The notes under the pieces were generated by a model. That model was not told the origin of the DNA. It worked only from the letters and a program-made list of their open reading frames with translations, and did not search any database. From positions 62,001 through 126,000 of the forward strand of contig JAGLOP010000006.1 in the NCBI GenBank assembly GCA_023138835.1: a stretch of 64,000 bases of DNA. The letters are read 5' to 3'. The translations under genes and the position numbers were made by a program. The stretch is from Arcobacteraceae bacterium. Its GTDB lineage: Bacteria; Campylobacterota; Campylobacteria; Campylobacterales; Arcobacteraceae. Numbering within the stretch: the first letter of the stretch is position 1; each line of letters begins with the position of its first letter. This document shows positions 49,693 to 56,118 of the stretch, in pieces.

Positions 49693-51157
49693 TTATAATT
49701 TTATCTCCAAAAAGTTCACATAAGGTTGGTTTATCAAAATTATACATAGGAATAAGTGTAAAGATATTACATATATCAATATATTTTAATGCAAATTCCC
49801 TTATTAATTCTTGATTATAACTTAATAGTATAATACTTTCATCTTTGGACGGCTTAATATCAATAGAATTCAAAGCTGAAAATTCTTTACACTTTTGTAA
49901 TAAAATATCATCATTACAACTGTCTTTATCCCATAAGATGGTACTACTTTCTAATAAATCTTTATTTAAATGTATATCTTTTTTACTTTTTAATGAAAAA
50001 ACAACTTCTTCAAAACCTAAAAGAGCCTTATAATATGGATAAACAATACTATTTTCATCTATGATATTTTCAATTTTTCTATACTCTACTAAATTTTGAG
50101 TACAAAATATATACTTCTTACTCTGTTCAATATCTATTTCTTCTAATTTCACAATATTCTTTATCAATACATCTTTTTTAAAAATATTAAATATATTTTT
50201 AATATTTTCTATTTCAATATCATTAAGTCCAATACATACAACTATAAAAGTTGTATGTAACGATATAAAATCTGATAAATTATTAATACTTGTATATCCA
50301 AGCAATACACTAACATCTCCCAACAATAATTGAATTCTATAAAATATATCTATATCAAAAAATTCTTTTGCTGTATTAGTTTTTTTACCTTTATTATTCC
50401 AATATGCACCATTATTTAGTGCCTCTTCCAATTCATTATAAATTTGTATAGAATCACTATTAAGAGATAATATTTGTGCTATTCTTTTAATTTCATTTAA
50501 TTTATCTGTTATTGTTAAGTTTTCAAATGTAAATTCATAAACATTATTATCATCCTTATACTTAATAAAATCAACAGCATTAAATCGTATTTCATTAAAG
50601 AAACAAATTCTTAAATAACTAAAAGCTTTTTGTAAATCCTCAGGATAAAGACCATAATTCATATTATTATTAGTATATCTTCTTATTTGAAAACTCAACT
50701 GATTAGAACTAATCGTTTTTTGATATTTTTCTTTACTTATACTTTGAGCTTTTATAATCGAAGTGGCTTCATCAAGTGGATTTCTATGTATAAAAAAATA
50801 GTGTGAAATATATTTGTCAATTTGATGTGTTTTATACATTCTCATAGATTTATGTGTTTGAAATACTGAACATTTAGACGCTATATATTTTGGTTCTAAA
50901 AAATTATTTTCATAGTATAAAAAATTTTTATTCTTTATATTTTCATAATATTTAATAGTCAATACATTAAACCCCAAATCTTTTAATGGCTGCACAACAT
51001 CCATACATTCGCCATCAACATCAAATGGAAAAACTTCTTTATCATCAGACAATAATTGTGATATTGACTTAAATTGAGAATTAGATTTTAAATATTTAGC
51101 TACTATACCCCATAAATATCCCGTAGATGTTCTTTGTGGTCCACCTATATAAATCAT
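49685..51157 (-). CDS. sulfotransferase-like protein with ~190-aa unassigned C-terminal region
   Basis: N-term IYIGGPQRTSTGYLWGIVAKYL (P-loop-like); SHYFFIHRNPLDEATSIIKAQS (3'-phosphate motif-like); 490 aa. Confidence 0.6.
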   Translation of the reverse strand: MIYIGGPQRTSTGYLWGIVAKYLKSNSQFKSISQLLSDDKEVFPFDVDGECMDVVQPLKDLGFNVLTIKYYENIKNKNFLYYENNFLEPKYIASKCSVFQTHKSMRMYKTHQIDKYISHYFFIHRNPLDEATSIIKAQSISKEKYQKTISSNQLSFQIRRYTNNNMNYGLYPEDLQKAFSYLRICFFNEIRFNAVDFIKYKDDNNVYEFTFENLTITDKLNEIKRIAQILSLNSDSIQIYNELEEALNNGAYWNNKGKKTNTAKEFFDIDIFYRIQLLLGDVSVLLGYTSINNLSDFISLHTTFIVVCIGLNDIEIENIKNIFNIFKKDVLIKNIVKLEEIDIEQSKKYIFCTQNLVEYRKIENIIDENSIVYPYYKALLGFEEVVFSLKSKKDIHLNKDLLESSTILWDKDSCNDDILLQKCKEFSALNSIDIKPSKDESIILLSYNQELIREFALKYIDICNIFTLIPMYNFDKPTLCELFGDKIIND

Positions 51158-51903
51158 CTTGATTCCTCTATCATTATACTATTCATATCATCAATACAAT
51201 CAATCTCAAGCCATCCTCCATCTATAAATACAGGTTTTACATCACATAAATTATCAATAATCATTTGAATAAAACTAGTCATATACATATTATCAAAGTC
51301 TTTTTCATCATATAATTTAGTTTTGTCTAACCTTTCATAAAATTTAATCACTTTATGTATTAAATTTTTAGAAATCTTTATCAATCCTATATATTGTCCT
51401 TCTATATCTTGATAACTATTTGGCTTCTTCCCAAGTTCTTTTATATTACCATTTGTTATTTTTAAAGTTTCAGCATCATCAAGTGGATTTTCCATCCTTT
51501 GACTCCAAAGCTTTTTCCATTTTCTATCTACAACTACGCTAAAATCATTTTTACTATTTATCAGCTTATCAAGCACTTCTTTTTTATAAATAATATCAGC
51601 ATAAGATATTATCAAATCATCATCCATAAAATCTTTTGCACAAAATAATGTTGATACCATATTTGTTTTATCAAAATTATCATTTGTAAAAAAAATTAGC
51701 TCTTTTTCTTTTAAATATTCTTCTAATACATCTTTTTTATAACCATTGATAAGTGCAATATCTTTTAAATCACACTCTTGTATAGTTGATAATATATAAT
51801 CTATTATTGGTTTTTGGTTATATTCAACCATACATTTTGGTCTATCATTTGTCAATGGTCTTAATCTTGTACCTTGCCCCGCTGCTAAAATTATTATTTT
51901 CAT
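51154..51903 (-). CDS. nucleotidyltransferase, candidate CTP:phosphoglutamine cytidylyltransferase (Cj1416-like)
   Basis: MKIIILAAGQGTRLRPLTNDRPKCMVEYNQKPIIDYIL; 249 aa; gene neighbourhood. Confidence 0.82.
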   Translation of the reverse strand: MKIIILAAGQGTRLRPLTNDRPKCMVEYNQKPIIDYILSTIQECDLKDIALINGYKKDVLEEYLKEKELIFFTNDNFDKTNMVSTLFCAKDFMDDDLIISYADIIYKKEVLDKLINSKNDFSVVVDRKWKKLWSQRMENPLDDAETLKITNGNIKELGKKPNSYQDIEGQYIGLIKISKNLIHKVIKFYERLDKTKLYDEKDFDNMYMTSFIQMIIDNLCDVKPVFIDGGWLEIDCIDDMNSIMIEESR

Positions 51904-52526
51904 GAAAAAAACTCTTTTATCAAATTTAATTCGTTGTTATCAAACGGCTCTACTCTTTCACTATGCCACATTTGAGCAAATATTCTTTTGTCTTTATGTT
52001 CTATAGCCTTTATTGTTTTATCCTCAGAAGTAGCTGACACAATTAAATCATTTGAAATATTTTCAATTAAATAATTATGAAATGAATTGACTTCTTTTAA
52101 AGAATTTAAATATTTTGAATATTTTGAGTTCTCATTAACTATTAACTTATGTTTGATATTAATTTGCCCATCAATTTTATTTAAATCACTTCCAAAATAT
52201 TTGGCAATTATTTGCATACCTCTACATACACCAAATATTGGTATGCTATTTTCAATAGCATACTTTATTAATTTAAATTCTAAATTATCTCTTTTTAATG
52301 ATAAATCATTTTGATTGACACTACTCAAATCATTACCACCGGTAAGAAAAATACCATCTATTTTAAACTCATTACAATATTTCTTAAAGTCATATTCATA
52401 AGGTAATATTATTGGTAACAAATCTATCTTTTCAAATAGTTTTCCCCAAGATATATCAAGCATCTCTCTTTGTTCAAAATAACTTTTATTATTAAATAAT
52501 CTTTGCGTTACAAGTATTTTTTTCAT
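51900..52526 (-). CDS. class I glutamine amidotransferase-like (peptidase C26), candidate gamma-glutamyl-CDP-amidate hydrolase (Cj1417-like)
   Basis: GIFLTGGNDL; PIFGVCRGMQIIAKYFG; FAQMWHSERVEPFD. Confidence 0.85.
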   Translation of the reverse strand: MKKILVTQRLFNNKSYFEQREMLDISWGKLFEKIDLLPIILPYEYDFKKYCNEFKIDGIFLTGGNDLSSVNQNDLSLKRDNLEFKLIKYAIENSIPIFGVCRGMQIIAKYFGSDLNKIDGQINIKHKLIVNENSKYSKYLNSLKEVNSFHNYLIENISNDLIVSATSEDKTIKAIEHKDKRIFAQMWHSERVEPFDNNELNLIKEFFS

Positions 52527-54841: not shown

Positions 54842-55611
54842 TATATTTTTTTAGCCGTCCAACATCTTGTAGTATATTTAATATCAAATTTTTTTGGCAT
54901 AACTTCTCTCATTTTATTTGTAATTTTTTCAAATAGTTCTTTACCCTCTTGAGTTTTTAAATCCCAATATTTATTCTTAACACTTTGCCAAGCTAATATA
55001 TATGTATCAATAGTTTGTGTAAAATAAAAATCCACTTCCATAAAAAATATTTCATCAAACAAATTATTGTGTTTTTCAATTATTGGTCTTTGGTCTTCCC
55101 TTCTCGTACCTCTTTCATAATTTGGAACAAATTCTTCAATAATAGATTCTGCTTGTTTTTGAATTGGATCATTTAAATCTCGGTGATTCCACATACAAGA
55201 AAAATAACCATTGTCTTTTAAAATTCTATATGTTTCTTTTAAAGCTAAATCCCTATCCATAACATTAAAACTACTTCCAAAAGTAACCCAATCTACACTT
55301 TTATCTTTAATGGTTGTTTCAAGTCCAGTTGCTCTAATCCACTCAATATTTCCATCTTCTGTTTTTTCTACACCAATTTCTCTCATTGCATCATTTGGTT
55401 CAATTGAAACTATTTGCAATCCTCTTTCAAGTAACATTATTGATAAGTTACCCGTACCTGCACCAATATCAGCAACCTTGAAATTTGCTTTTTTATTTGC
55501 CTTTACATACTCTTTTAGAATATCTATAGCTTTTGGTGCATAATTTGGTCTATACTCATAAAACTTTGCATGTTTTGTATAACTCCAATGATTTTCAGTT
55601 AATTCTTTCAT
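54841..55611 (-). CDS. class I SAM-dependent methyltransferase (Cj1419/Cj1420-like)
   Basis: KVADIGAGTGNLSIMLLERGLQIVSIEPNDAMREIG; DWVTFGSSFNVMD. Confidence 0.85.
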   Translation of the reverse strand: MKELTENHWSYTKHAKFYEYRPNYAPKAIDILKEYVKANKKANFKVADIGAGTGNLSIMLLERGLQIVSIEPNDAMREIGVEKTEDGNIEWIRATGLETTIKDKSVDWVTFGSSFNVMDRDLALKETYRILKDNGYFSCMWNHRDLNDPIQKQAESIIEEFVPNYERGTRREDQRPIIEKHNNLFDEIFFMEVDFYFTQTIDTYILAWQSVKNKYWDLKTQEGKELFEKITNKMREVMPKKFDIKYTTRCWTAKKI

Positions 55612-56118
55612 CTATTGTTCCTTTATTAAATTTAAAATTTCTTGAACTTTTTCTGTAAGTTTATTTTGTTCACTATTATCTATAACCAATTCACAAAGAG
55701 CGGGGTGATCATAAGGTAAATCTACCCCAACAACATTCTGAATTTCACCTTTTATTGCTTTAGAATATAATCCCTTTTGATCTCTTCTTATTAATTCTTC
55801 TATATCACACTCAATAAAAACCTCAAAATAATTTTTTATCTCTTTTCTATTTAATTTGTGTACCTCTTGATAAAGTGACATTGTTGCACATACTACATTT
55901 ATATTTTGTGAAATTAAAAACTTACACATTCTATGTATTCTTTTTGCATTTTCAAGCCTATCTTTAGGAGTATGACTTAAATCATTTCCTAATATTTCTC
56001 TAAAACTGTCTCCATCTAAAAATACTGTATTTACATATCTTTCTTTTAATTTTTCATATACTTCTTTACCAATGGTTGTTTTCCCACTTCCGCTTAGTCC
56101 TGTTATCCAAATTAGCAT
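55612..56118 (-). CDS. CysC-like kinase, candidate cytidine diphosphoramidate kinase (Cj1415-like)
   Basis: MLIWITGLSGSGKTTIGKEVYEKLKERYVNTVFLDGDSFREILGNDL; adjacent to methyltransferase and glutamine-kinase-like gene, not to sat. Confidence 0.82.
   Translation of the reverse strand: MLIWITGLSGSGKTTIGKEVYEKLKERYVNTVFLDGDSFREILGNDLSHTPKDRLENAKRIHRMCKFLISQNINVVCATMSLYQEVHKLNRKEIKNYFEVFIECDIEELIRRDQKGLYSKAIKGEIQNVVGVDLPYDHPALCELVIDNSEQNKLTEKVQEILNLIKEQ

Follow-up and report, generated by a model that had tools for sequence, protein, structure and literature searches.

A methyl phosphoramidate-type operon within a flagellar glycosylation island of an Arcobacteraceae bacterium

Introduction

The O-methyl phosphoramidate (MeOPN) capsule modification of Campylobacter jejuni is encoded by the cluster Cj1415-Cj1422. 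The biochemical roles of Cj1415-Cj1418, namely CDP-amidate kinase, cytidylyltransferase, amidohydrolase and glutamine kinase, are given here as cited in a 2025 paper (PMC11800397). Transfer of the group is attributed to Cj1421 and Cj1422 (PMC11800397, PMC9561416), and no function is assigned to Cj1419 and Cj1420, since their knockouts gave no change (PMC11800397). According to a 2019 review, the modification is known from Campylobacter alone (PMC6429109). Known phosphoramidate acceptors are the capsule and lipopolysaccharide (LPS), the latter in Xanthomonas campestris and in Shewanella MR-4 and with the unmethylated group (PMC3907429); there, too, a P-N group is placed on a surface glycan, but with LPS as acceptor. 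Here we describe a MeOPN-type operon in a 64,000-nucleotide stretch of an Arcobacteraceae genome (GCA_023138835.1, contig JAGLOP010000006.1, positions 62,001 to 126,000; hereafter the window), which lies between flagellar glycosylation genes and probably supplies an activated phosphoramidate donor for the decoration of a flagellar glycan.

As in C. jejuni, orthologues of the glutamine kinase, the cytidylyltransferase, the amidohydrolase, the CDP-amidate kinase and the Cj1419-type methyltransferase stand in one cluster. Unlike in C. jejuni, the CysC-like kinase comes first, the genes are sited with those for Maf, nonulosonic acid synthesis and flagellin, and no kps genes, no DUF2972 transferase above the cut-off and no Cj1420 orthologue were found in the genome. 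The surroundings, which comprise a pair of Maf proteins, genes of the NeuB/NeuC type and flagellins in tandem, resemble the Maf/nonulosonic-acid flagellar islands of Campylobacter, Arcobacteraceae and Clostridium, to which the window adds a phosphoramidate donor operon and genes for 3'-phosphoadenosine-5'-phosphosulfate (PAPS) supply. A further parallel exists to PAPS-dependent sulfation, with its adenosine 5'-phosphosulfate (APS) kinase, sulfotransferase and CysQ: MeOPN-type loci contain an APS-kinase-like 3'-kinase together with sulfotransferase-superfamily or DUF2972 and CysQ neighbours, although the predicted donor is CDP-phosphoramidate 3'-phosphate and not PAPS. For phosphoramidate on a flagellar glycan (flagellin, legionaminic acid, flagellar glycosylation) we found no report in the searchable portion of the open-licence literature, which is not proof of absence. 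A Clostridium botulinum flagellar paper offers no precedent, as MeOPN capsule work is just cited among its references.

Results and Discussion

Operon layout and enzyme identity

The window is part of a contig (C25) of a 2.12 Mb genome that is 86.6% complete. Five open reading frames (ORFs) of the classes, positions, strands and sizes proposed by an earlier sequence-only reading are indeed present at 51154-56118, as seen from ORF and domain checks. In order of transcription they are:

55612-56118, minus strand: CysC-like kinase (CysC), 168 aa, predicted CDP-amidate 3'-kinase of the Cj1415 type (models, kinase tree)
54841-55611, minus strand: S-adenosylmethionine (SAM) methyltransferase (MT), 256 aa, Cj1419 orthologue with 69% identity (domain, identity to the C. 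jejuni type)
52523-54841, minus strand: L-glutamine kinase (GlnK) of the Cj1418 type, 772 aa, with PPDK_N and PEP-utilizer mobile domain (NF004508)
51900-52526, minus strand: gamma-glutamyl-CDP-amidate hydrolase (GATase) of the Cj1417 type, 208 aa, peptidase C26 (NF045546, conserved residues)
51154-51903, minus strand: nucleotidyltransferase (NTase), 249 aa, predicted CTP:phosphoglutamine cytidylyltransferase of the Cj1416 type (identity, nearest structure)

The genes are tightly packed: CysC and MT adjoin with a gap of 0, MT and GlnK overlap by 1 bp, and the GlnK-GATase and GATase-NTase overlaps amount to 4 bp each. The NTase gene in turn overlaps the next ORF (49685-51157) by 4 bp.

To assign the enzymes, we compared them with curated models and with the C. 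jejuni-type proteins of two reference loci, L053 (kps-adjacent) and L090 (C. jejuni GP013), rather than those of strain NCTC 11168; in both loci kpsC/kpsS lie beside the five-gene set (hereafter the module). The glutamine kinase reaches 997.7 bits with NF004508/PRK05849, whose cut-off is 501; the C. jejuni-type protein, to which it is 51% identical, reaches 1173. The enzyme has the phosphohistidine motif GGANSHMA with an invariant H729. Its assignment as an ordinary PEP synthase or PPDK was rejected, given that PEP synthase models stay below 80 bits. For the amidohydrolase, the gamma-glutamyl-CDP-amidate hydrolase model NF045546 is the top match with 189.8 bits (below its cut-off of 250), compared to 57.6 for the runner-up, and Cys101, His188 and Glu190 are invariant. 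The nucleotidyltransferase has no match to a dedicated model; it shares 54% identity and the signature residues with the C. jejuni-type protein and has the CTP:phosphocholine cytidylyltransferase 1jyk as nearest solved structure.

The kinase encoded at 55612-56118 scores 228.5 bits on NF004041/PRK05541 versus 144.5 on the generic apsK model. The same preference is seen for the C. jejuni-type kinase (291.9 vs 127.1 bits), and the second APS kinase of the window, encoded beside an ATP sulfurylase, gives 104.7 bits on PRK05541 and 110.1 on apsK. In the kinase tree, the module enzyme falls into a starred clade whose 63 kinases, that of C. jejuni among them, stem without exception from module loci; the ATP-sulfurylase-linked enzyme lies outside. 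An assignment of 55612-56118 as an APS kinase is thus disfavoured by both the model preference and the tree. Taken together, the models of the C. jejuni MeOPN enzymes score best, and the set is, as proposed, of the MeOPN type and not an assortment of ordinary PEP synthase, APS kinase and gamma-Glu-GABA hydrolase. Judged from their sequences, the family identity of the module enzymes is close to certain.

The methyltransferase requires more caution. The window's genome encodes the Cj1419 type only, no Cj1420-type orthologue being found in it, and the genome of Ca. Marinarcus encodes the Cj1420 type only. The sequence-only reading had treated Cj1419 and Cj1420 as the MeOPN methyltransferases, a role that is not proven in view of the unchanged knockouts. 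Methylation in the window's pathway is hence probable rather than shown, and the 256-aa enzyme is the probable O-methylating enzyme. In another locus, a Cj1420-type and a Cj1419-type methyltransferase are fused to a 515-aa protein (L036:11100-12647) that adjoins leg genes.

Distribution and gene order

Of 397 Campylobacterota genomes sampled, 76 carry a glutamine kinase gene, and a scan of a genome collection yielded at least 599 candidates, at least 555 of which encode relatives. The best 80 relatives belong to Campylobacterota, Bacillota, Bacteroidota, Spirochaetota, Pseudomonadota, Planctomycetota and others. Most of the 80 named genomes, which cover many phyla, carry the five-gene module in largely the same order, a recurrence far beyond chance. 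The most widespread order is CysC-MT-GlnK-GATase-NTase, as in the window, C. jejuni being the exception (NTase-CysC-kpsC). The earlier suggestion that the Cj1415-type gene had been moved to the front of the C. jejuni order is therefore the wrong way round: the window's arrangement is common and that of C. jejuni unusual. Some glutamine kinase copies lie in ORFs of about 980-1020 aa (G398:C16:114501-116846; G465, G466, G471), suggesting terminal extensions, and the Helicobacteraceae bacterium GLR69 has two copies.

The flagellar island and its recurrence

The operon is flanked by the following genes:

21515-31019, plus strand: nonulosonic (legionaminic-type) acid synthesis genes (NeuB, TIGR03569, 517.8 bits; NeuC, TIGR03568, 493.9 bits; Pfam)
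31026-32789, plus strand: Maf-type flagellin glycosyltransferase 1 (PF01973, PF20157)
59358-61340, plus strand: Maf-type flagellin glycosyltransferase 2 (PF01973, PF20157)
61392-63943, minus strand: tandem flagellin genes, the third cut by the end of the window (ORFs, Pfam)

The window thus combines Maf and flagellin genes with those for nonulosonic acid synthesis. Six flagellin genes with near-identical ends stand in tandem at the end of the contig; in Ca. Marinarcus, flagellin genes likewise lie at a contig end. The description of the operon as embedded in maf, legionaminic-type and flagellin genes, away from an evident capsule-export locus, agrees with what we find: neither KpsC/S (PF05159) nor Wza/KpsD (PF02563, Poly_export) has a match in the window's genome, as far as this is complete (86.6%).

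The same holds for four 99%-complete genomes with flagellar-type modules (G300, G108, G160 and G020), in which profile searches found no KpsC/S or Wza/KpsD. PF02563 was also not found in GLR69 and in the genome of the nearest relative, and is present in the C. jejuni-like G102; PF05159 occurs in 38 of the 76 kinase-positive Campylobacterota genomes. In G300 (Ca. Marinarcus), flagellin, Maf, radical SAM, leg genes and module follow one another in that order within 18 kb. Module, flagellins and Maf lie inside about 11 kb in G108 and G160, and Maf and flagellins 9-15 kb from the module in GLR69 and Sulfuricurvum STB_35. In G020, leg genes adjoin the module, with flagellin and Maf elsewhere.

To quantify this linkage, we tabulated manually, for 79 named genomes, how far the module lies from the closest Flagellin_N match of its contig, and set the counts against an upper bound for the number expected by chance; some of these matches are hook-associated proteins, likewise flagellar, and close relatives among the genomes are not fully independent. 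A flagellin lies within 30 kb in 16 of all 79 genomes, compared to 6.9 expected (P 8e-4). Without Campylobacter and Helicobacter, the count is 15 of 56 versus at most 3.6 expected (P 8.5e-7), and within 13 kb it is 8 versus 1.65 (P 2e-4). Among the strains with a flagellin no more than 30 kb away are the cultured Fusibacter bizertensis WBS, Natronincola peptidivorans DSM 18979 and Catenovulum agarivorans DS-2. In the glutamine kinase tree the flagellin-linked state requires at least 15 changes, so the flagellin-linked modules do not form one clade. The location in flagellar islands is real and recurrent, and since the pairing of module and flagellar genes recurs in other phyla, flagella are probably tagged in this way as well.

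A shared flagellar cargo in a gammaproteobacterium

A related arrangement is found in another phylum, in the gammaproteobacterium BB4 (L155, L148), where flgH, flgI and a flgK-like gene are followed by counterparts of much of the window's cargo and then by CysC-MT-GlnK-GATase-NTase. In the window, the corresponding genes include:

56126-57262, minus strand: glycosyltransferase-like protein (assigned by eye, no Pfam match), 378 aa, directly upstream of the module, with a homologue of 52% identity in the flagellar-locus island of BB4
42662-49692, minus strand: short-chain dehydrogenase/reductase (SDR), three radical-SAM proteins, GNAT-like protein, sulfotransferase (43749-44666) and DegT aminotransferase, 54-70% identical to the gammaproteobacterium

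Identities between BB4 and the window are 59% for a NAD epimerase, 36% for a gmhA-like, 29% for a hldE-like and 39% for a radical SAM protein and 35% for a CysC-like kinase; then 52% for the 378-aa protein, 54% for GNAT, 68% and 70% for two radical SAM proteins, 62% for the sulfotransferase and 65% for DegT; and finally 78% for a pyruvate-kinase-like protein, 62% for a radical SAM protein, 43% for a relative of the 490-aa protein encoded at 49685-51157, 57% for SDR and 69% for a further radical SAM protein. The closely shared neighbours, including the homologues of 49685 and 56126, are hence 43-78% identical, compared to only 28-45% for the module proteins, and the BB4 glutamine kinase falls into a distant part of the glutamine kinase tree. 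The simplest reading of these sequences is that this flagellar cargo and the module came together more than once, or else that one module was exchanged for another. In both cases the cargo would be tied to phosphoramidate chemistry.

Two further regions belong to the island:

40361-41909, minus strand: genes for PAPS supply, namely ATP sulfurylase and the second APS kinase (at 41421; models)
36025-37297 and 39384-40358: split transketolase pair; pyruvate-kinase-like barrel protein

A TauE-type exporter (within 40361-42619) is also encoded beside the PAPS genes.

Transferase candidates and a possible sulfation-like logic

The sequence-only reading had called the pathway complete. This applies to the enzymes that form the activated donor, and not to the transferase: the L053 counterpart of Cj1421/Cj1422 is a DUF2972 protein, and no protein of this type scores above the cut-off in the window's genome. 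Among 26 genomes tested, DUF2972 exceeds the cut-off in three, two of which are C. jejuni-like and Helicobacter. A structure predicted for a Helicobacter DUF2972 protein (L100:5280-6479; predicted local distance difference test (pLDDT) 70, predicted template modelling score (pTM) 0.71) has heparan sulfate 3-O-sulfotransferases as its first twelve Foldseek matches, with a best E of 2e-4 and probability 1.00 at low TM-scores of 0.3-0.46; the predicted DUF2972 fold is thus closest to these enzymes. Independently of this, 24 loci from several phyla encode a member of the sulfotransferase superfamily at most 6 kb from the module. In another 24 loci (L073, L074, L084 and L096 among them; mostly Helicobacter), the 3'(2'),5'-bisphosphate nucleotidase CysQ is found at such a distance, as expected if 3'-phospho-CMP needs recycling. 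The combination suggests a sulfation-like logic, in which the donor is 3'-phosphorylated, the transferase has a sulfotransferase fold and the 3'-phosphonucleotide is then removed. By eye, the proteins beside CysC in L033 (376 aa) and L037 (394 aa) resemble CDP-glycerol-type transferases, but that of L033 has no Pfam match.

In the window, the position and overlap with the operon single out one candidate:

49685-51157, minus strand: 490-aa protein, candidate phosphoramidate (or sulfate) transferase (position, 4-bp overlap, sulfotransferase-like motifs)

The motifs lie near residues 5-16 and 122-134, and the protein weakly matches a profile of module-linked sulfotransferases (E 0.006). It has no Pfam match, a protein search returned one relative besides itself, alignment against profiles of solved structures gave nothing, and none of 58 pattern matches in a metagenome scan was confirmed. 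As ATP sulfurylase, APS kinase and an unequivocal sulfotransferase (43749-44666) are also encoded in the island, the 490-aa protein may be a sulfotransferase instead.

Proposed pathway and alternatives

Based on these data, the 249-aa enzyme would couple the product of the glutamine kinase to the CMP moiety of CTP. Glutamate would be cleaved off by the 208-aa hydrolase to give cytidine diphosphoramidate, which the 168-aa kinase would phosphorylate at the 3' position to yield a PAPS-like donor. At some stage the 256-aa enzyme would O-methylate. A sulfotransferase-like enzyme, with 49685-51157 as best candidate, could then move the (methyl) phosphoramidate to the nonulosonic or other sugar with which the Maf proteins would glycosylate the adjacent flagellins. 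The genomic context makes flagellar use of the module likely.

Several observations weigh against this assignment. Enzyme activities, methylation, transferase, product and flagellin acceptor are predicted from sequence. The amidohydrolase scores below the curated NF045546 equivalog cut-off of 250; the Ca. Marinarcus and another environmental homologue, however, reach just 193-196 bits against 328.1 for the C. jejuni type, so that the model is probably tuned to Campylobacter. The module CysC also exceeds the general apsK cut-off (138.7). In the window's genome DUF2972 is sub-threshold only (18.4 bits vs a cut-off of 22.2), and the predicted structure of 49685-51157 is unusable (pLDDT 39). The exporter negative rests on a genome that is only 86.6% complete. 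Campylobacter and Helicobacter alone show no enrichment, with a flagellin within 30 kb in 1 of 23 genomes, and flagellin linkage of the module is thus not a rule. Finally, since the island carries PAPS genes (ATP sulfurylase, a second APS kinase) as well as sulfotransferase-like ones, all missed by the sequence-only reading, some neighbours may serve sulfation.

The donor could be made and used on another surface glycan such as LPS core, O-antigen or exopolysaccharide, the flagellar location being incidental. An LPS-type acceptor, for which the unmethylated group of Xanthomonas and Shewanella (cited in PMC3907429) offers a parallel, may apply, the exporter searches having covered KpsC/S and Wza/KpsD; furthermore, Campylobacter modules lie with kps genes or elsewhere, and the Helicobacter module is not near flagellin. 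Set against this are the missing KpsC/S and Wza/KpsD matches here and in the four near-complete genomes, the bounding of the island by Maf and flagellins, the flagellin linkage above chance outside Campylobacter/Helicobacter and the BB4 island that comes after flgH-flgI-flgK. We consider such an acceptor unlikely. Doubt about the product itself arises from the nucleotidyltransferase without a dedicated model and from the presence of one of two C. jejuni methyltransferase types whose roles are unassigned (PMC11800397). The operon might thus make another N-phosphorylated or nucleotide-linked compound, e.g. unmethylated phosphoramidate or an amidated phosphosugar. With all four donor-forming enzyme types together with a Cj1419 orthologue at 69% identity, this appears rather improbable.

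Sulfation could also account for part of the set, with 55612-56118 as second APS kinase, 49685-51157 and 43749-44666 as PAPS-dependent sulfotransferases acting on the flagellar glycan, and the P-N genes in another role or idle. The ATP sulfurylase and second APS kinase of the island, the passing of Sulfotransfer_3 by 43749-44666 and the apsK score of the 168-aa kinase would fit. Yet the ATP sulfurylase of the island is already accompanied by an APS kinase, and the 168-aa enzyme scores far better on PRK05541, groups with the module kinases (78% identity to the Marinarcus kinase) and shares an operon with a glutamine kinase. Sulfation of the glycan and phosphoramidation may simply coexist, and an explanation by sulfation has in our view only a slim chance of being correct. 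We accordingly favour phosphoramidate decoration of the flagellar glycan as the probable function of the operon.

In a broader proposal, which we advance tentatively and with some doubt, phosphoramidate transfer could be a widespread counterpart of sulfation, with a 3'-phosphorylated CDP-phosphoramidate donor made by an APS-kinase relative, sulfotransferase-fold transferases including DUF2972, CysQ clearing 3'-phospho-CMP and flagellin glycans as a repeated target outside Campylobacter/Helicobacter.

Conclusion

The occurrence of MeOPN-type genes in many phyla, and in several of these within flagellar glycosylation islands, contrasts with the view of a modification confined to Campylobacter (PMC6429109). 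From our analysis follow proposals on the transferase and on the recycling of the nucleotide that lend themselves to testing. Should flagellin bear the group, this rare P-N chemistry would move from the capsule to the most abundant motility protein, with a bearing on flagellotropic phages and on the immune recognition of flagella.

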